Shown here in pieces: positions 4,581-60,513 of a DNA stretch of 64,000 nt; positions within the stretch are counted from its first letter, which is position 1; every line of letters begins with the position of its first letter. The position numbers and the translations under genes are program-made. The notes beneath the pieces are model-generated. The model saw only the letters and a program-made list of their open reading frames with translations. It did not search any database and was not told where the DNA came from. The stretch comes from an uncultured Prochlorococcus sp. (GTDB taxonomy: Bacteria > Cyanobacteriota > Cyanobacteriia > PCC-6307 > Cyanobiaceae), in contig CABYTO010000006.1 in NCBI GenBank assembly GCA_902521995.1, positions 1 to 64,000 of the forward strand, read 5' to 3'.

Positions 4581-5438
4581 TCAATTTAGATATTTGATAA
4601 TTATAAAAATGTAATACATAACAGATGGGGTGAAAATGTAGCTGTCAATTCTGTCAAGAATCCCTCCATGACCCGGTAAAAAAGTTCCAGAATCTTTTAT
4701 TTTTGCATCTCTCTTCATCATAGATTCAATTAAATCTCCAACTAATGCCATAAGAGAAATTGAAATTCCATATATGATTCCAATAAATAATGGATTTTCC
4801 CAATTCATTAAAAATGCGAAAAATATTGCTAGTAAAATTGAACAGGATATTCCTCCAATTAAACCTTCTATAGTTTTGCTCGGAGATATTGGAGATAGAG
4901 ATGTTTTACCAAACGACTTCCCAATGAAATAAGAACCAATATCACTAGCTACAATTAAAAAACAGGAAGTTAAAGTTAAATGAAGACCTGGAGTATTTGA
5001 TAGGTTCTCAAACGAGATAAAACCCTGACTTGAACTTATTATCACTGAATCTAATCCCCTTAACTTAATCCAGTAACTAGGTAAAAATCCTAAATAGAAT
5101 AATCCAAAAATAGAGGCTGCAATATCTGAAATTGTTCCAGGTTTTGGTTGCAAAAGTAACCAAGTACATATCCCAACTGAACAGATTGGCAAAATTGAAT
5201 TTGAAATTTCTCCTTCAATCAAACCAATAGTCTCAAGATAAGTAGAAATAATAATAATAAAGGATGAAAATAATGTGGTTTTTGTAGCTGGTCTTATTCC
5301 TTTAAATTCTGCCATTCTAAAAAATTCTAATAATGCTAAATATGTAAGCAAAGCAGTTGCCAATGTAAAAAACCATCCTCCTAACAAAACAACAATTAAA
5401 CCAAAAATTCCTATAAGTAATCCGCTTTTTAATCTCAT
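4581..5438 (-). CDS. cdsA: phosphatidate cytidylyltransferase
   Basis: Makes CDP-diacylglycerol from phosphatidate and CTP, the precursor of phosphatidylglycerol, which is the only phospholipid of cyanobacterial thylakoids. The 285-residue protein is strongly hydrophobic with about seven to eight membrane segments, and the C-terminus carries the CdsA signature at about 239-266 (SMMKRDAKIKDSG, then GHGGILDRID). Length is typical for the family. It follows the PLP decarboxylase on the same strand with only 9 bases between them, so the two are probably one transcript. Confidence 0.95.
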   Translation of the reverse strand: MRLKSGLLIGIFGLIVVLLGGWFFTLATALLTYLALLEFFRMAEFKGIRPATKTTLFSSFIIIISTYLETIGLIEGEISNSILPICSVGICTWLLLQPKPGTISDIAASIFGLFYLGFLPSYWIKLRGLDSVIISSSQGFISFENLSNTPGLHLTLTSCFLIVASDIGSYFIGKSFGKTSLSPISPSKTIEGLIGGISCSILLAIFFAFLMNWENPLFIGIIYGISISLMALVGDLIESMMKRDAKIKDSGTFLPGHGGILDRIDSYIFTPSVMYYIFIIIKYLN

Positions 5439-5447
5439 ATGAAATTG

Positions 5448-6845
5448 CTATATTTTTAAGACTCTTATATTAAAATTTATCAGATCTTTGTTGCATAAAC
5501 TTTGATTATTTATCCAATTAAACCTATCTAAATCAATTTTTTCGCCAGGAATTATTAGAGGTATCCCAGGAGGATAAGGGCAAATAATATCTGCAGATAT
5601 TTTATTTAATGAATGTGAGAAAGCAATACTCCGAGTCTCACTTCTCCAAGCAATTCCAATTTCGATTTCGGGAGCTTGAACTAATTTAAAAGGCGATTTA
5701 AGCATTTCTAAACTTTTTGATTTTTTGGAATTTAATAGTAATTTTTCCCATAACTTTTCAAATAAATTAAGAAAATCTTTTTGATTGCCAAATCCTAAGC
5801 AAAAAGTGAGAGTCATCATTTCTGGTAATTCGGCAATAAGGCCATTTTTATAAAAAAAATTATCAGCAGTAAAACCATCAATCCCAGCCTTTGAGGTATT
5901 TACTACAATTTTTAAGGGGTCTTGAGTTTCTATGAGGGGTATATTTTTTTGAATTAATTTTTTATAAATACTTTTTGCTTCTAAAATTCTTTTTTGATAT
6001 TTTGATAAGCTTTTCTTGTTAAGCCAATCTCTAATAGACTCTTCACAAGAAGAAAGTAATAAGGAACTCGGACTGGTAGTTTGCAGCAAATTAATACTTT
6101 TGATTAAATTAACTTCATTTATTAAATTCCCTTTGTACCAAAGTACTGCTGTTTGAGTTAATCCATTAAGCGACTTATGCAATGAATTAACTACTAAATC
6201 AGCGTTTGATGATAAGGCCGGTTTTGGTAAATTAAGGTTTTCACAAAAAAGGAAATATGAACCATGGGCTTCATCAACTAAAACAGGTAGATTTTTTTGA
6301 TGACAACAATCTATTAAAGGCTCTAAATCTCCTGCATAACCATGATAAGTGGGATTTACAAGAATAACCCCTGCAATTTTATTCTCATCAAAATTTAATT
6401 TTTTAAATACATTTTCCAACCAAATTTTTGTAATTGGTTTGTAATGCCCCGTTACGGTTGAAAATTCTAGGTCAAAAAAAATTGGATTTATATTCTGCAT
6501 AGCACAGATTTTTATAACACTTATATGAACATTTCTAGGCATCAGGATATTTTCGCCTGGGTTTGCCATTGCAATTACTGCTGATTGAATTAATCCTGAA
6601 GCTCCATTAACTCCAAAAAAACATCTTTTAGCCCCAAATTTGTCGGAGAATTCTCTTTGAGATTTAGCAATTAATCCGCTTTGGGTAAGTGGGGACCCTA
6701 TTTCTGGTAGTTCGGGCAAGTCCCAATACCCAGGTGGATATTTTAATAACTTCACTAATTTCTCTGGTAAAGCTGCCCCTCTGTTATGAGCGGGAAAGAA
6801 TAAGGACTTTAAAAACTTTTTAGTTAGAAAAGATGAAATGCTCAT
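5448..6845 (-). CDS. Orn/Lys/Arg decarboxylase family PLP enzyme
   Basis: Fold-type I PLP-dependent decarboxylase of the Orn/Lys/Arg family. The 465-residue protein shows the DEAHG motif at 191-195 (Asp pairs with the PLP ring nitrogen) and SLHK at 221-224, where Lys224 should form the Schiff base. A C-terminal segment with PYPPGIPLIIPGE is typical of the group. The short length matches the small (about 450-490 residue) bacterial lysine/arginine decarboxylases, not the long inducible enterobacterial ones. Substrate (arginine, lysine or ornithine) cannot be assigned. It lies directly upstream of cdsA and is divergent from the ABC1 kinase gene across 64 bases. Confidence 0.88.
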   Translation of the reverse strand: MSISSFLTKKFLKSLFFPAHNRGAALPEKLVKLLKYPPGYWDLPELPEIGSPLTQSGLIAKSQREFSDKFGAKRCFFGVNGASGLIQSAVIAMANPGENILMPRNVHISVIKICAMQNINPIFFDLEFSTVTGHYKPITKIWLENVFKKLNFDENKIAGVILVNPTYHGYAGDLEPLIDCCHQKNLPVLVDEAHGSYFLFCENLNLPKPALSSNADLVVNSLHKSLNGLTQTAVLWYKGNLINEVNLIKSINLLQTTSPSSLLLSSCEESIRDWLNKKSLSKYQKRILEAKSIYKKLIQKNIPLIETQDPLKIVVNTSKAGIDGFTADNFFYKNGLIAELPEMMTLTFCLGFGNQKDFLNLFEKLWEKLLLNSKKSKSLEMLKSPFKLVQAPEIEIGIAWRSETRSIAFSHSLNKISADIICPYPPGIPLIIPGEKIDLDRFNWINNQSLCNKDLINFNIRVLKI

Positions 6846-53098: not shown

Positions 53099-53320
53099 AT
53101 GAAGTCTTATTTTAATCAAATTTATAAAATAATTTTTCTTTTATTACTTTCGAGTATTTCAAATTTATATGCACATAATTTATTTAATGGTGGTTGCAAA
53201 GACCATTGTGGGCAAAAAGTTAAAGTAACAATTAAAAAAAATAATTTAAAAAATATTGATGATCAAATAAATGTTGAAAGTAAAAATTCTTGTTTAAATA
53301 AATCACTATGTAGAGGTTAA
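53099..53320 (+). CDS. exported Cys-rich small protein, unknown
   Basis: 73 residues: a signal peptide (about 1-25, ending in SNLYA) and a short mature part with four Cys residues in two pairs (GGCKDHCGQK and NSCLNKSLCRG) linked by a Lys/Asn-rich stretch. The spacing suggests two disulfides or a metal site. No family recognised. Confidence 0.5.
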   Translation: MKSYFNQIYKIIFLLLLSSISNLYAHNLFNGGCKDHCGQKVKVTIKKNNLKNIDDQINVESKNSCLNKSLCRG

Positions 53321-54352: not shown

Positions 54353-55426
54353 TTATTTAAATCCTTTAGAAAAAAGATTAGTACGGACTTTAAATTTCCA
54401 TACATTTACCACACCTTTTGCATTAACTGCTGCAAGTGCACAATCATCAGGTCTCCAGGATATTGCCCCTACTAAATCTCCTGCGAATGCTGCCCCAACT
54501 GGGTCTCCATTTCCGTCTTTTTTTAGAAAACTTGCGACAACAGAACCATCTCTAGATCCTGAGGCTACGAGCATACCTTTATTTGAAAAGGCTAGGCTCG
54601 AAATAGGTTCGGTATGGTGACAAAGCTCTCCTGGCATAGTCCCTTCTGGACCATTGCCTATAAAGCTCCATACTGTAATTCTTTCACTGCCGCTAGTCGC
54701 TAATAATTTTCCGCTGTCATCAAAAGAAAGGTGACTTGGTTTCCCAGGGTATCCAGTCATTTCAGCATCCATTCCTGTTGATCTTCTCCAAAAATGAACT
54801 GAATTGTCTTGACTCCCACAGGCTACTATATCTCCATCAGGGCTTAATTCCATAGAGACCAATGATCCTTGCCACTCGAGTTTTTGATTCGTTTTATTAT
54901 TAACAATGTCAAAGAATGTCACTCTGCCGTAGCATGCAGTGGCTAGCTCATTTTTATTTGACCATGTTATTGCACTTACTGTGCTTGGATGGTCTTCTGA
55001 GATCCATTTCTCTTCTCCAATTTCATTGAAAACATATACTTTTTTTGAGGAAGCTATCGCTAGAAATAAACCGTCATTAGACCACTTGAGGTGTTCTGCC
55101 CAACCCTCACCAAGATTAAGTGTTTTAATTACTTTTCCGTCTTGGCAATTACAAATTTGAACATTTCCATCCTGACCTGATGTTGCAAAAATATCACCCT
55201 CTGGATGAATGGCCATTGCTAATAGACCACCGGAGTGTGTATTTTCTTTTTTCCAAATAATTTTTCCAGTATCTCCTTCGAACGAAAAAAGACCTCCTGA
55301 AACGTCGCCAACAATAAATTGTTTTCCTTTGAGAGCCCAGCCACATGCTATAGCGTAATCGTTAACTTCAGCAGTCCATCCCTCATGGAACATGCCTCTT
55401 GGGCTAAATGGTTCTATATCAGGCAT
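54353..55426 (-). CDS. WD40-repeat beta-propeller protein in the zinc operon
   Basis: 357 residues made of about seven WD40-like blades (for example GGLLAMAIHPEGDIFATSGQ, EPISSLAFSNKGMLVASGSR, SRDGSV). It should form a propeller that scaffolds protein contacts; no enzyme motif. Its start overlaps the end of the CobW gene by 13 bases, so the two are translationally coupled and it is probably a working partner of the CobW GTPase. No signal peptide: cytoplasmic. Confidence 0.9.
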   Translation of the reverse strand: MPDIEPFSPRGMFHEGWTAEVNDYAIACGWALKGKQFIVGDVSGGLFSFEGDTGKIIWKKENTHSGGLLAMAIHPEGDIFATSGQDGNVQICNCQDGKVIKTLNLGEGWAEHLKWSNDGLFLAIASSKKVYVFNEIGEEKWISEDHPSTVSAITWSNKNELATACYGRVTFFDIVNNKTNQKLEWQGSLVSMELSPDGDIVACGSQDNSVHFWRRSTGMDAEMTGYPGKPSHLSFDDSGKLLATSGSERITVWSFIGNGPEGTMPGELCHHTEPISSLAFSNKGMLVASGSRDGSVVASFLKKDGNGDPVGAAFAGDLVGAISWRPDDCALAAVNAKGVVNVWKFKVRTNLFSKGFK

Positions 55427-56763
55427 TTATCAAAGCCTTCTTGCATCTCTTTCTCATTTAAATTTCTACCGATAAAAACAAGTTGATTTCTACGAGGTTC
55501 GTTACCCCATTCTTTATCAGGTTGTGCAGTAAATAACATGTGAACTCCTTGGAAAACTATTCTCCTTGGGTTACCTGAGTAACTTATGAAACCTTTAGTT
55601 CTGAATATATCCACTCCTTTTTCTGATAGAAGTCTTCCCATCCAAGTATTTAGTTTTTCTGGGTCAACATCTCCAAAACGCTCTATGGCAATTGAGCCTA
55701 CTTCATCATCATGTTCGTGCTCTGCTTGCCAGAATCTTTCAGTATTAAATGGAATCTCTTTATTTTCGTCACTTTTAATGACTTTCATATTGAATTCTTC
55801 AGCGGTGTGCTGTGTAAATAATCCTATTTTTATTGGTTTTTCTATGTTCAAGATGAAGGATTTATTTCCTTTATCCTCCAATTTGAGATTTATATGTTCT
55901 CTATATGGGATGGTATCCCCAGGATCTAAACTATTAGCTTTTTCTGCATAAAGTCTCACGGAGGATTCAGCACCATCTTTAAGTTCCTCTTCACTCTCTC
56001 CTTGGTTAGCGAGGGCTACTAAGGACATTTCTGGATCGGGTCCTTCTTCTAGCATTAATTCATATTTACCTGCATCAAGATCGTAAACACCTGTCCATTC
56101 AAAAGGATATTCTGGTTCAAGGAATGTTGGCCTGCGTTTAAGGATCTGATCAAGATCAAATGCACTAAGATTTAAAACTGTTTCAATTGGTACTTTGGCA
56201 TTCTCGGCTCTAATAATTCGGGTCATTCTGTTCATATCTCTCAATCTCGATTCAAGAGTATCTAGTGCATCATTAGAGACTAAATCAGTTTTATTAAGGA
56301 CAATAACATCTGCAAATGCCACTTGTTCTGAACTTTCATCACTCCTTCCTAGCTGCTGATCAATATGAGCAGCATCAACTAAAGTTACAATTCCATCAAG
56401 AGTAAATTCAGAACTAATTTCTTCGTCCATGAAAAATGTCTGAGCAACTGGCCCTGGATCTGCTAATCCTGTCGTTTCTACTAAAACATAGTCAAACTTA
56501 TCTCTTCTTTTCATAAGGTTGCCAAGGACTCTTATTAAATCACCGCGAACAGTACAGCAAATGCACCCGTTTGACATCTCAAACACTTCTTCATCGGCAT
56601 TAATTACGAGCCCTTGATCTATACCTACTTCACCGTATTCATTCTCAATTACGGCTATTCTTTTTCCGTGCTCTTCACTTAGTATTCTATTAAGCAAAGT
56701 AGTCTTCCCTGAACCTAAGAATCCAGTGAGGATGGTTACGGGAACTTTATCTTTGATGCTCAT
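55414..56763 (-). CDS. CobW/COG0523 family GTPase, probable zinc metallochaperone, with inserted FEW domain
   Basis: 449 residues: Walker A GFLGSGKT at 14-21, the metal-binding CICC at 67-70, VETTGLADPGP, the NKTDL base-recognition motif near 157-161, and a C-terminal CobW domain (about 345-445). Between them lies an extra domain (about 221-330, beginning FEWTG and including DPEM and FTQHTAEEF) that resembles a segment of ZnuA in this locus. Context (77 bases after znuA, near zur) points to zinc rather than cobalt. The HEHDDE stretch at 349-354 is a possible extra metal site. Confidence 0.92.
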   Translation of the reverse strand: MSIKDKVPVTILTGFLGSGKTTLLNRILSEEHGKRIAVIENEYGEVGIDQGLVINADEEVFEMSNGCICCTVRGDLIRVLGNLMKRRDKFDYVLVETTGLADPGPVAQTFFMDEEISSEFTLDGIVTLVDAAHIDQQLGRSDESSEQVAFADVIVLNKTDLVSNDALDTLESRLRDMNRMTRIIRAENAKVPIETVLNLSAFDLDQILKRRPTFLEPEYPFEWTGVYDLDAGKYELMLEEGPDPEMSLVALANQGESEEELKDGAESSVRLYAEKANSLDPGDTIPYREHINLKLEDKGNKSFILNIEKPIKIGLFTQHTAEEFNMKVIKSDENKEIPFNTERFWQAEHEHDDEVGSIAIERFGDVDPEKLNTWMGRLLSEKGVDIFRTKGFISYSGNPRRIVFQGVHMLFTAQPDKEWGNEPRRNQLVFIGRNLNEKEMQEGFDKCLI

Positions 56764-56840
56764 TTACTGATTTTTACTAAATAAACAATAGTTTAATAAT
56801 AGTAATAATAAGAAATGAAAACCGTTTTTATTAGAAAAAT

Positions 56841-58355
56841 TTAATCTGAAAGTTTGTACCATTCAGACTCAAGATTGGAGCCAGATTCTTTATCACAGCT
56901 TCCACCTAATGAGTCAACAATTGTACAAGTATTGTGAACAGCTACTGAAACCGTATTACCATCCATCATTAATCCATCAACGAATATTTGATTAGAAGCT
57001 AAAGGAACTGAACTTTGTCTACTTAAGTTCCTTAATAACTTAGATGCTGGAATTTGTTCAGGAAATATTGCCTGAACTTTCTCTTCATCTAACATTTTTA
57101 AAGTAGAACTTATGTTGTCTGGCCTTAAGCTTGAGGAGTCTCCAAGAAAGTCAAGTAAACTAATGGTTTCAAAACCAAATGCATCCCCGTAGTATTCCAA
57201 CGCTTTGTGTTTAGAGACAATTACTCTGTTTTCCTCAGGAATAGTACTTACTTGTTCGACGATCCAACTATCTAAGCCTTCTAAGAGAGAATCAGCTTTT
57301 TCAAATTTTTCATTAATTAGTTTTCTGTCACCTCTATTAAAAACTGAAATATCTTTCTTTAAACTTTTGCTTATAAGATCTCCCATTTTTATGATGTTAT
57401 GCGGATCATGCCAAACATGTGGATCTAGTCCTCCATGGTCATGATGATGATGCCCCTCACCTTCGTCTGGAAATTGTGCTATTGGTTCTACATCACTATT
57501 TGAAACGTCCTTAAAGAAGTGTTGAGTTGCTTCAAACTCAAAAGGCATGTGTTCAGTAAAAAATATATATTGACCATCTTCTTTGATATCCACGTTAAAA
57601 ACAGTACTTTCTTTTCTTTGATCAAAGTTAAGAACAAAAGCTTTATTACTTGCTATCAAAGTACCATCATTTTTTCTGCTTATTGAGTCTTTAGATCCTA
57701 ATAATTCTTTAGCTAAATCTTCAGACCCTTCTATGTCATTAGATTTGAGAATCACCATCTTCATTGCAGGATCTGCATATTCTCCATCGACTTTTTCAAA
57801 TGACCATTTGTAAGAACCCTTAGAAAGCTGGAATTTGCCTGCCCATTCAAAAGCACCTTCAGCATGATCATCATGACCTCCATGATCAGAATGATCATCT
57901 ACTTTAGCTGAAAGTTCAGAATGATCGTCATGTCCACCATGGTCTGAGTGATCATCATGACCCCCATGATCAGAATGATCATCTACGTCTATTGCACTAA
58001 CACCTACAACAACAGTATTCTTTTTATTTTCCCAATTTCTCATACTTGGAGTCATTTCTTTACCAAGAGTAAATACTTTATCTGCGCTATTTAGTAATTG
58101 AGCTTGCCTTGGATTGATCTTTAAGTCATGAACATCTTGTTTTCTATCTACTAAGCATGTAACTTCGTCAGATGGTAATGCAATTGATTTAACTAAATCA
58201 CAAACTAGTGGCTCTACTGCTACATATGACTTTCCTTTAGCCATGACATCCTGCCCAAAACCAGAAAATATAATTGTTCCTGCGATTACGGAATTTTTAA
58301 TAATTGACTTACTCGAACCTTTTTTATTTGTTAAAAGTCTTTTAAAAATTGACAT
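56841..58355 (-). CDS. znuA: ZnuA, zinc ABC transporter substrate-binding protein with His-rich and inserted domains
   Basis: 504 residues, much longer than usual ZnuA (about 300). After a long signal region (1-40) the TroA-like fold is interrupted by a His/Asp-rich tandem repeat (125-166, units such as DDHSDHGGH) and by a domain at about 168-280 starting FEWAG, with DPAM and FFTEHMPFEFE, similar to part of the CobW protein. A second His run (HHHHDHGG, 302-309) leads into the ligand motif DPHVWHDPHN (311-320). Later VSKHKALEYYGDAFG and LFPEQIPAS-type segments complete the fold. Divergent from znuC with a Zur-like box between. Confidence 0.95.
   Translation of the reverse strand: MSIFKRLLTNKKGSSKSIIKNSVIAGTIIFSGFGQDVMAKGKSYVAVEPLVCDLVKSIALPSDEVTCLVDRKQDVHDLKINPRQAQLLNSADKVFTLGKEMTPSMRNWENKKNTVVVGVSAIDVDDHSDHGGHDDHSDHGGHDDHSELSAKVDDHSDHGGHDDHAEGAFEWAGKFQLSKGSYKWSFEKVDGEYADPAMKMVILKSNDIEGSEDLAKELLGSKDSISRKNDGTLIASNKAFVLNFDQRKESTVFNVDIKEDGQYIFFTEHMPFEFEATQHFFKDVSNSDVEPIAQFPDEGEGHHHHDHGGLDPHVWHDPHNIIKMGDLISKSLKKDISVFNRGDRKLINEKFEKADSLLEGLDSWIVEQVSTIPEENRVIVSKHKALEYYGDAFGFETISLLDFLGDSSSLRPDNISSTLKMLDEEKVQAIFPEQIPASKLLRNLSRQSSVPLASNQIFVDGLMMDGNTVSVAVHNTCTIVDSLGGSCDKESGSNLESEWYKLSD
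57850..57985 (-). repeat. tandem repeat encoding the His/Asp-rich loop of ZnuA
   Basis: A short imperfect tandem repeat inside znuA: units of about 27-30 bases specifying D-D-H-S-D-H-G-G-H occur four times between residues 125 and 163. It is in frame and coding. Repeat number may vary between strains by slippage. Purpose is presumably zinc buffering next to the binding pocket. Confidence 0.8.
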
Positions 58356-58379: not shown

Positions 58380-58400
58380 TGATAATCATTTTCATTATCT
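58380..58400. promoter_or_regulatory. Zur-box-like operator between znuA and znuC
   Basis: TGATAAT-C-ATTTTCA (58380-58394) is a 7-1-7 inverted repeat with one mismatch, the form reported for cyanobacterial Zur boxes; it continues as GATAAT-N7-ATTATC through 58399. It lies 25 bases before the znuA start on the minus strand and about 90 bases before znuC on the plus strand, so one repressor could silence both when zinc is sufficient. Confidence 0.75.
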
Positions 58401-58491: not shown

Positions 58492-59262
58492 ATGGCTACT
58501 TTAGTCGCTGAAAATTTAACCTTTGCATACGCAAAAAAAAGTAAGCCAGTTTTGAATAAGGTATCGGTTGAGATTAAACCTGGAACTCTAACAGCGTTAG
58601 TTGGCCCAAATGGCGCAGGTAAATCAACTCTTTTGAGAATTTTGCAAGGACAAAATACTCCAGATAAAGGCGAAATAAAAATTGATGGTGAAAATTTATA
58701 TAGATCTAGAGCTCTTGTGGCACTTATGCCTCAAAGAAGTTCTATGAATTGGAAGTTCCCCATCACAGTTGAAAAATTGGTATCTCTTGGTCAAATAAAA
58801 TATTCAAAATCAAGAAGTAATAACCCATTTCAAATTAAGACTCTTCTAGCATATCCTAATTCTTGGATTAATAAATGTTGTGAATTAGAGGCGACAATGC
58901 AGAGAGTAGGCATTGCAAGTTTGGCGAATAGAAGACTCGATTCTCTTTCAGGAGGACAGCAGCAAAGAGCTCTATTAGCAAAAACTCTTATGTCCCCGGC
59001 AAAAATATTTCTTTTAGATGAACCTTGTGCAGCTTTGGACCCACCTGCAAAGGAGGATTTTCTTAAAATTGTTCGTCAACTTGCCGATGCCGGACTTTCT
59101 TTGCTCGTAAGTAGCCATGATTGGGGCGATACTTTAAATAACTATGATCAAGTAATTGTTCTTGATAAAAGTGTTTTGGCAGTTGGTAGTCCTGACCAAA
59201 TACAAGATAAATTAGAGGCAATAAACATTAGCTCTATAAACGAAAATAATTTCTGTGATTAG
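58492..59262 (+). CDS. znuC: ZnuC, zinc ABC transporter ATPase
   Basis: 256 residues: Walker A GPNGAGKST at 38-46, an unusual insert around 105-125 (RSNNPFQIKTLLAYPNSW), signature LSGGQQQR at 152-159, Walker B ILLLDEPCAALDP-like segment and the switch His in SSHDWGD. Powers zinc import with ZnuA and ZnuB. The znuB gene is on the same strand but separated by the antiparallel zur gene. Confidence 0.95.
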   Translation: MATLVAENLTFAYAKKSKPVLNKVSVEIKPGTLTALVGPNGAGKSTLLRILQGQNTPDKGEIKIDGENLYRSRALVALMPQRSSMNWKFPITVEKLVSLGQIKYSKSRSNNPFQIKTLLAYPNSWINKCCELEATMQRVGIASLANRRLDSLSGGQQQRALLAKTLMSPAKIFLLDEPCAALDPPAKEDFLKIVRQLADAGLSLLVSSHDWGDTLNNYDQVIVLDKSVLAVGSPDQIQDKLEAINISSINENNFCD

Positions 59263-59275
59263 AGAATGTTCCTTT

Positions 59276-59710
59276 TTAATTCTGAGCTTGATAACAGTTT
59301 TGGCAAAGCCCGAAATATTCGAGGGTATGAAACAACAATTGGAATTTCTTTGGATTTGTTTTGGGTGTATGAATATCTTTTACCGGGCATCCTTCCATTT
59401 TTGATGTCTCACCACATTGAACACAGGTCAAATGATGAATATCTCTATCTACGGGAGTGTACAGAACCTCTCCAGTTGGGAGATGTCTAGAACGTATTAA
59501 GCCATGCTTTATCAGAACTTGAAGATTCCTGTAAACAGTCGTCAGTCCCATAGCCTTTCCGCTTTCTATCAATTGTCTATGCAACTCTTGACCAGTCAAT
59601 TCATCCTCGCATTTATTAAGTTCTTCAAGAAGTTGTTCTTGTCTTTTGGTAATGTCAGACTTAGTTACCATCGTTTCCGAAATCTTTTTTTGTCCCGTAT
59701 TTTTGATCAT
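59276..59710 (-). CDS. zur: Zur, Fur-family zinc uptake regulator
   Basis: 144 residues of the Fur family: winged helix (QEQLLEELNKCEDELTGQELHRQL then TVYRNLQVLIKHGLIRSRHL), linker HHLTCVQCGETSKMEG with CxxC, and a C-terminal CQNC, together a structural Cys4 zinc site. M14 (MVTKSDITKRQ) is an alternative start. Assignment as Zur rather than Fur or PerR rests on position inside the znu locus. It lies antiparallel between znuC and znuB: 13 bases from znuC's stop and 17 between its ATG and znuB's. Confidence 0.93.
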   Translation of the reverse strand: MIKNTGQKKISETMVTKSDITKRQEQLLEELNKCEDELTGQELHRQLIESGKAMGLTTVYRNLQVLIKHGLIRSRHLPTGEVLYTPVDRDIHHLTCVQCGETSKMEGCPVKDIHTPKTNPKKFQLLFHTLEYFGLCQNCYQAQN

Positions 59711-59727
59711 ACCGAATCATTTGAATA

Positions 59728-60513
59728 ATGTCTTTTATTAATAACAACTGGTGGCTGGTTCCATTAATAATAACTATATTCTCCGGGATTTTATGCCCAG
59801 CTATGGGAACTGTATTAATCACTCATAAGAGATTATTACAAGTTAATTTAATCTCTCATTGTGTGTTGCCTGGACTTGCTCTCGCATTAGCGCTTGGAAT
59901 TCATCCTTCAATTGGTGGTGTTATAAGTGGTCTTCTGGGCTCAGTAATTGCGGAAAGTTTAACTAATAGAAAAAGTGAAAATTATGAAGCAGTTATGAAT
60001 ACTATTCTCGCTGGAATGCTTGGATTTGGAGTCCTTATAATCCCTTTACTCGGAATAAGGATTGATTTGGAGGCAGTATTATTTGGCGATTTATTGACAG
60101 CAAATTTTGGAGATTTACTTAGAACAATAATTGCTTTTTTAGTATTTATACTTTTAATGACTTTTGGATATGAAAAGGTTGTTTATGTGGGATTGGATCC
60201 AGAAGGTGCATCCGCGAGCGGTATAAACGTTTCTTTATTAAATCTTGCTTTGAGTTTTACAACGGCATTAGTAATTGTTAGTTCAATGTCAGCAGTGGGA
60301 GTAATTCTTGTTATTGCTCTTCTTTCTACCCCAACTCTGTTAGGGCTAAATAAGGCTCATAGTTTAAGAATTGCAATGATAAGGTCCTCACTTTTTGGGT
60401 TATGCATATCACTTCTGGGCTTTATTCTCTCTATAGTCTTTAATTTGTCGCCAGGACCTGCAATTAGTGTTATTTGTGTCGCATCTCTTTTGATTCCTAA
60501 ACTTCGCAAATAA
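59728..60513 (+). CDS. znuB: ZnuB, zinc ABC transporter permease
   Basis: 261-residue ABC-3 family permease with about eight membrane helices. CPAMGTVLITHKRLLQVNLISHC, split here as helix 1-2, contains the family pattern, and GLDPEGASASGINV is the conserved coupling region. It starts 17 bases from zur on the other strand and its stop is directly followed by a convergent small gene. Confidence 0.94.
   Translation: MSFINNNWWLVPLIITIFSGILCPAMGTVLITHKRLLQVNLISHCVLPGLALALALGIHPSIGGVISGLLGSVIAESLTNRKSENYEAVMNTILAGMLGFGVLIIPLLGIRIDLEAVLFGDLLTANFGDLLRTIIAFLVFILLMTFGYEKVVYVGLDPEGASASGINVSLLNLALSFTTALVIVSSMSAVGVILVIALLSTPTLLGLNKAHSLRIAMIRSSLFGLCISLLGFILSIVFNLSPGPAISVICVASLLIPKLRK

Follow-up and report, generated by a model that had tools for sequence, protein, structure and literature searches.

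In a 64,000-nucleotide stretch of DNA from an uncultured Prochlorococcus sp. (assembly GCA_902521995.1, contig CABYTO010000006.1, positions 1-64,000; hereafter the window, its own genome being labelled G000), the zinc-binding protein ZnuA and the CobW-like COG0523 GTPase encoded beside it carry one homologous domain of ~112 residues, which is so far unnamed in Pfam, NCBIfam, PDB sequences and the open-licence literature. The znuA gene (56841-58355, minus strand) encodes a zinc ABC transporter substrate-binding protein of 504 residues that matches PF01297 (E=1.6e-41; 143 bits, above the curated cut-off of 29), and its copy of the domain occupies residues 166-278 (57522-57860, minus strand). The cobW-like gene (55414-56763, minus strand) encodes a protein of 449 residues that matches PF02492 at residues 8-184 (E=2.5e-61, 206.9 bits) and PF07683 at residues 356-448 (E=1.7e-24, 85.9 bits), both above the Pfam cut-offs, and carries the domain at residues 218-328 (55780-56112, minus strand). 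Its translation contains GCICC, a match to CxCC, the metal motif of COG0523 proteins. Four residues of the domain are invariant, being E170, D195, H269 and E273 in ZnuA and E222, D243, H319 and E323 in the CobW protein, and we consider it probable that the domain is an accessory metal-binding module that adds to or replaces the flexible His-rich loop of its host.

Homology and predicted fold of the two inserts

The first-pass annotation of the window, made by a model from the letters alone, had claimed that residues ~169-276 of ZnuA and ~221-326 of the CobW protein are alike, and had proposed profile-profile comparison and fold prediction as checks. The motif pairs that it quoted (FEWAG/FEWTG, LSKGSY/LDAGKY, DPAM/DPEM and FFTEHMPFEFE/LFTQHTAEEF) were found in the translations, and homology was confirmed within slightly wider profile bounds, those given above. 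BLASTP aligned the two inserts with E=3e-7 and 28% identity over 113 columns, and their Smith-Waterman score of 77 was reached in 1 of 5000 shuffles (shuffled mean 30.2, standard deviation 5.4). Profiles in which the other host was left out found one another's copies. The ZnuA-only profile (59 rows without CobW) detected CobW copies with a best independent E of 3.6e-9 and the window's own CobW protein with 2.5e-5, and the CobW-only profile (82 rows without ZnuA) detected ZnuA copies with a best independent E of 3.2e-15 and the window's own ZnuA with 1.1e-11, while the domain profiles gave zero matches at E<=1 among 2805 reversed open reading frames (ORFs). In the profile-profile comparison, hhalign assigned eight ZnuA and 19 CobW copies a probability of 99.1% and an E value of 1.1e-18 over 104 columns, a significant similarity. 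Chance similarity was ruled out by the profile comparison, BLASTP, shuffles and reversed decoys, and a chance or convergent likeness of two unrelated inserts, to which the pairwise identity of merely 28-32% could point, is scarcely credible beside the profile-profile E value, the empty decoys, the same order of main elements in the models of both and the relatives in other proteins that match both inserts.

The insert lies outside Pfam coverage in the CobW protein, between PF02492 and PF07683, and nearly so in ZnuA. The further claim that classical ZnuA and COG0523 proteins have no such segment holds as far as Pfam, the genome's other COG0523 paralog and the ZnuA proteins of three related Prochlorococcus are concerned.

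A small beta-sandwich is the predicted fold. AlphaFold2 models were built from 29 ZnuA-only rows (predicted local distance difference test, pLDDT, 84.0; predicted template modelling score, pTM, 0.79) and from 46 CobW-only rows (pLDDT 91.8, pTM 0.83), that is, from alignments without shared rows, and were compared by the order of elements only. In both models three strands are followed by one helix, a short strand and three strands, so that fold prediction agreed with the sequence comparison; a second short strand (70-72) is specific to the ZnuA model, and three short strands past the sandwich are specific to the CobW model. Searches of Pfam-A with the single inserts and with all 27 members of the profile called A1, and of NCBIfam with the A1 members, gave no family above the curated cut-offs, the Pfam and NCBIfam matches being weak, scattered over unrelated families and confined to one or two of the 27 members (best E 0.0094 and 0.0046). 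The PDB sequence search returned no family (best E 0.62, a proteasome subunit), and a description of the domain was not found by keyword searches of the open-licence literature. Foldseek against the PDB gave nothing at E<=0.001 for either model; with the ZnuA model, the copper-binding CorA (4bz4) stood at rank 10 with E 0.076, amid unrelated rows. The best VIA-align Z values, 4.4 for EphA4 (ZnuA model) and 5.5 for 1nc7, Thermotoga maritima 1070 (CobW model), fall within the common background and indicate only a general beta-sandwich likeness, from which no assignment to a fold family is made.

Invariant residues, host position and a putative metal site

Residue conservation was evaluated on 278 aligned rows, 20 of which had at least 20 gaps and were left out; the remaining 258 contain 196 copies that are distinct over the 112 profile columns, namely 136 from CobW proteins, 53 from Prochlorococcus-type ZnuA, three from haloarchaeal binding proteins, three from haloarchaeal putative lipoproteins and one from Alicyclobacillus. 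Only four positions, E5, D26, H103 and E107 of the profile, are constant in all 196 distinct full-length copies, the next most constant being F108 and G8 (195/196 each), G15 (194/196) and W6 (193/196). The first-pass annotation had proposed the residues of an FTxH motif and an EF pair as metal ligands. The His of the former and the Glu of the latter are indeed invariant; the Thr of FTxH occurs in 168 of the 196 copies and the Phe of EF in 195, and the invariant Glu and Asp of the N-terminal part had gone unnamed. By strand order the four residues fall just ahead of strand 1, between strands 2 and 3, and past the last sandwich strand, and in the modelled fold they could form one site because a domain inserted in a loop needs to have its two ends near each other.

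The domain lies in or beside metal loops. In ZnuA it sits inside the His-rich loop ahead of the DPHxW motif, which consists of HHHHDHGGLDPHVW and a 41-residue His-rich stretch with the domain between them: the stretch directly N-terminal of the domain covers residues 125-165 (57861-57983, minus strand), 11 His being present in the 40 residues that precede the domain, and HHHHDH at residues 302-307 (57435-57452, minus strand) lies C-terminal of it, directly ahead of DPHVW. In the CobW protein the domain is flanked by the GTPase and CobW_C domains, and HEHDD comes after it at residues 349-353 (55705-55719, minus strand); an HxH motif, mostly HEHDD, stands 18-47 residues on in 136 of 136 distinct CobW copies when a range of 70 residues is counted. 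The second COG0523 protein of the same genome lacks the domain and has a long His/Ser run at that position. Because of this run and of the placement in the ZnuA loop, the domain takes the His-loop position in two unrelated hosts. Within 45 residues C-terminal of the domain, HxH was found in 126/136 CobW, 45/53 ZnuA and 7/7 other copies, and within 40 residues N-terminal of it in 0/136, 0/53 (in this strict form; the N-terminal His residues of the window's ZnuA are spaced as HxxH and fall outside the count) and 7/7, respectively. Judged by these counts, His-rich stretches on both sides are a feature of the copies outside the cytoplasm, the CobW copies having His on one side only.

That the domain is probably a metal-binding module is suggested because its hosts of known type handle metals, it is placed within or next to their metal loops, and its constant residues are all potential ligands. 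We infer metal binding, zinc as the metal, clustering of the four residues in space and hand-over. In the periplasmic His-rich loop of ZnuA the domain would capture or retain zinc and then pass it to the transport site; in the CobW protein, where it separates the GTPase from CobW_C, it would keep zinc for delivery to an intracellular client. The candidate site in each case is the invariant Glu-Asp-His-Glu, which lies close to the termini of the first, second and last strands of the sandwich. The Zur-type context of the locus (znuABC, a Fur-family gene and a candidate operator) also speaks for such a role, as does the fact that the hosts of known type are metal proteins and that one haloarchaeal copy adjoins a urease operon. 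The wider proposal, which we advance more tentatively and as somewhat short of probable, is that the domain represents a new metal-binding family of Bacteria and Archaea that works as an exchangeable metal-hand-over cassette: the same fold and Glu-Asp-His-Glu site would have been put more than once into His-rich loops, the hosts being unrelated proteins that the metal reaches one after the other, a capture protein outside and a GTPase chaperone inside, and in some lineages would form a standalone putative lipoprotein.

Several points weigh against the metal-binding role. The structure searches (Foldseek against the PDB and VIA-align) gave no metal protein above the common background. Glu/Asp/His/Glu is an atypical zinc set that might instead bind Ca, Mn, Fe or Ni or have a structural role, and the meeting of the four residues in space is deduced from strand order and the closeness of the insertion ends. 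The copies were gathered by similarity, and those lacking the four residues may be under-collected; a partial CobW copy (L151), outside the 196, carries Arg in place of the His and Asp in place of the second Glu. Furthermore, the domain is not essential to ZnuA, because domain-free ZnuA or ZnuA-like ORFs are found in three Prochlorococcus loci and in six others.

The closest competing idea is docking, in which the domain would bind a partner (the adjoining WD40 protein for CobW, and the permease or an outer-membrane donor for ZnuA) and the invariant residues would form the interface. The neighbourhood of domain-bearing cobW genes was evaluated in 80 loci, with ORFs read from stop to stop and some loci being short contigs, and a WD40 gene lies directly downstream on the same strand, overlapping or 4 bases apart, in all 80; the same pair occurs in Paraburkholderia, and beta-sandwiches are common binding folds. 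Docking would explain this constant partner of CobW, but not the same residues outside the cytoplasm, where copies cannot meet the WD40 protein if it is cytoplasmic and yet keep all four. The invariant residues are charged or His with no hydrophobic patch, and the annotated stretches examined around the haloarchaeal copies list no WD40 gene next to them. With hosts on either side of the membrane, a single docking role for every copy is less easy to envisage, and we regard docking as unlikely, if still the most serious alternative to metal binding.

Occurrence and history of the domain

Beyond the window, a search for the domain in other proteins, which the first-pass annotation had also proposed, found it in haloarchaeal binding proteins and putative lipoproteins, in an Alicyclobacillus protein and in COG0523 proteins of several phyla. 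The annotation's suggestion of a mobile module is well supported in the sense of a widely redistributed domain, which is present in four host types in Bacteria and Archaea and in 0, 1 or 2 copies in related strains. Seven genome scans were run with A1, in each of which the centre genome with a known domain was among the positives; the counts are lower bounds, part of the first-look candidates having been scored in some genomes. The domain was found in at least 23/292 cyanobacterial genomes and at least 64/251 genomes of the window's family, and in at least 2/398, 9/188, 12/199, 12/201 and 1/149 genomes of the phyla of a gammaproteobacterial record (G310), Sorangium (G304), an Acidobacteria record (G301), a SAR202 record (G299) and a Spirochaetaceae record (G307), respectively. 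Many of the scanned records are single-cell or metagenome assemblies, and single placements such as SAR86 may be contamination. The distinct full-length bacterial copies that were read as proteins are all COG0523-type or Prochlorococcus-type ZnuA ORFs, except that of Alicyclobacillus. Among 20 non-cyanobacterial genomes reached through CobW loci, 19 have one copy and G311 has two, both of the COG0523 type. At the L151 locus, the cobW gene is missing some of the GTPase as well as the domain's first half and looks decayed. On viral contigs 41 stretches matched the search pattern and none encoded a relative, and the phage records gave no domain match.

In the plasmid search the ZnuA copy retrieved 8 records and the CobW copy 11, among them domain-bearing COG0523 proteins of Pantoea and Paraburkholderia. 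In the zinc-type binding proteins of Haloarcula, Halorubrum and Halorientalis the domain lies between His-rich stretches ahead of DPHFW, and in small putative lipoproteins of Halosolutus, Halomontanus and Natrinema, annotated as hypothetical and with a lipobox recognised by eye, it is flanked by His-rich sequence on both sides; the Natrinema gene comes after a urease operon. A plasmid of Haloarcula halophila carries a longer binding-protein gene copy in one piece (63875-65464, matched over 98% of the query) and a second copy (L192, 361759-362475) that is split within the domain into two frames. In Halorubrum and Haloarcula (L193 and L202) two genes for GTP-binding proteins and one for a cobalt-factor II methyltransferase stand upstream of the gene of the domain-bearing binding protein; at L193 that protein's ORF was the only one listed by the domain profile. 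The Alicyclobacillus protein, an apparent membrane protein by its hydrophobic stretches as judged by eye, has the domain between HGQSHDH and GSEHDH, and its copy is 37% identical to that of Halomontanus (E 2e-16). It is encoded as a hypothetical protein on a plasmid of Alicyclobacillus curvatus (L195, 5788-6699) near genes for a cation transporter and a metal-sensitive regulator. Pfam found no family in the whole protein or in either flank; its identity as a nickel/cobalt permease, to which an HX4DH-like motif could point, received no support from Pfam and is not claimed.

Copy number in ZnuA varies between related strains. Among the domain-bearing ZnuA ORFs in the 80 CobW loci and the window, 40 have one copy and nine have two. 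An apparent ZnuA ORF of 839-873 residues at L110 (G223), in which an unread stretch (X) is followed by the same sequence again, is probably an assembly artefact. In three Prochlorococcus loci, L006, L014 and L082, the ZnuA at the same place (ORFs 4801-5913, 4801-5913 and 4699-5913) is free of the domain and retains a long His/Asp-rich loop, and the CobW proteins of these loci are 97-99% identical to the window's. Six loci of non-Prochlorococcus type (L055, L057, L062, L072, L076 and L077) have a domain-free ZnuA-like ORF near the domain-bearing cobW, and one further ZnuA-like ORF, at L045, is cut by the contig end. At L082, whole-gene exchange is as possible as domain loss because the C-terminal lobe of its ZnuA is 70% identical to that of the window.

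In a tree of 78 rows the copies outside the cytoplasm cluster (94/85), Prochlorococcus ZnuA grouping with haloarchaea (97/83) and Prochlorococcus CobW standing among other CobW proteins; the alignment is short and the branch to Prochlorococcus ZnuA is long. Between Prochlorococcus and haloarchaeal ZnuA, the domains are 35% identical (score 150) and the C-terminal lobes 27% (score 79), and these results favour a spread of the domain apart from its hosts. An alternative origin by local copying, in which the Prochlorococcus znuA took the domain from the adjoining cobW, was also weighed. The two genes adjoin; a tree that holds Prochlorococcus ZnuA and CobW as a joint clade is not rejected by the approximately unbiased (AU) test (p 0.268); and the haloarchaeal ZnuA domain scores 157 (34% identity) against Prochlorococcus CobW and 150 against Prochlorococcus ZnuA, which does not single out haloarchaea as the source. 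The best tree nevertheless separates the two Prochlorococcus copies as described, they score only 77 against each other, and the domain sits in the corresponding loop of haloarchaeal ZnuA, so that local copying earns little credence from us.

Relation to known zinc systems and the surrounding locus

The comparison closest in position is with the His-rich loop of ZnuA and the His-stretch of COG0523 proteins and HypB, which, in the parts of PMC8786288 and PMC2770081 drawn on here, share the host position, the His-rich setting and a presumed role in capturing or storing zinc close to where it is transported or transferred. Those His runs are flexible and unfolded, whereas here a folded domain with a fixed Glu-Asp-His-Glu is inserted in them or stands in their place. 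ZepA of Anabaena is, according to the portion of PMC10957091 used, a Zur-regulated extracellular zinc protein with a beta-sandwich part, and ZnuA and COG0523 genes lie near it in some genomes; compared by description only, it differs in being a PEP-CTERM exoprotein with a His pocket. The present domain touches on how COG0523 GTPases get zinc and on the role of the His-rich loops in zinc-binding proteins, and, being folded and alignable and having the same four residues fixed in both proteins, it offers a direct target for mutation, unlike disordered His runs. AdcA-type zinc-binding proteins carry an added ZinT domain, which is C-terminal and a separate Pfam family. They are likewise zinc substrate-binding proteins with an added folded zinc domain, ZinT being placed at the C-terminus and the present domain in a loop; no ZinT is among the Pfam matches listed for the inserts. 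Prochlorococcus inhabits the zinc-poor open ocean, and the copy number of 0, 1 or 2 in the ZnuA of its strains amounts to a natural series. Unannotated metal proteins could also be spotted by means of the domain, the haloarchaeal putative lipoproteins now called hypothetical being one example.

CBM35 and GOLD domains have a similar general sandwich arrangement, and the domain could be a ligand-binding or calcium-stabilised jelly roll of this kind that binds a glycan or an organic complex of zinc, the four residues being a structural metal site. CBM35 and GOLD rows appear in VIA-align for both models with Z 3.3-5.0, and a weak Pfam CBM_35 match was found in 2 of the 27 A1 members (best E 0.088). 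All Z values are nevertheless below 8 and tied with unrelated beta-sandwich proteins, no sequence or Foldseek match to these families is significant, Foldseek having none at E<=0.001, and a glycan-binding domain would hardly be expected in a cytoplasmic GTPase; we find a jelly roll of this type improbable, slightly more so than local copying.

In the surrounding locus, the WD40 beta-propeller gene (54353-55426, minus strand; Pfam WD40) overlaps the end of cobW, and because of this overlap and the gap of only 77 bases between znuA and cobW, the three genes probably form one transcript. Between the divergent znuA and znuC lies an inverted repeat, GATAAT-N7-ATTATC (58381-58399), a candidate Zur box by its sequence. 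It is followed by znuC (58492-59262, plus strand), encoding the ABC transporter ATPase (PF00005, E=9.3e-31), a Fur-family regulator gene (59276-59710, minus strand; PF01475, E=3.9e-19) whose product is probably Zur, and the permease gene znuB (59728-60513, plus strand; PF00950, E=4.7e-43). Across the 80 CobW loci, znuA-, znuB- and znuC-like ORFs occur together in 46, and together with a Zur-like ORF in 42. In the part of PMC2770081 (Haas et al. 2009) available here, COG0523 subfamily 5 clusters with WD40, znuABC and creatinase genes, and Zur sites are predicted ahead of COG0523 genes in Prochlorococcus; the window's cobW resembles this subfamily in its WD40 and znuABC neighbours and its predicted Zur control; that part of the source mentions no inserted domain. 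In Synechococcus WH8102, according to the portion of PMC9337993 consulted, znuC and znuA go up when Zur is absent, as do two genes of unknown function next to them. The same region of the window as the zinc genes also contains an ORF of 73 residues (53099-53320, plus strand) with a signal-like start and several Cys.

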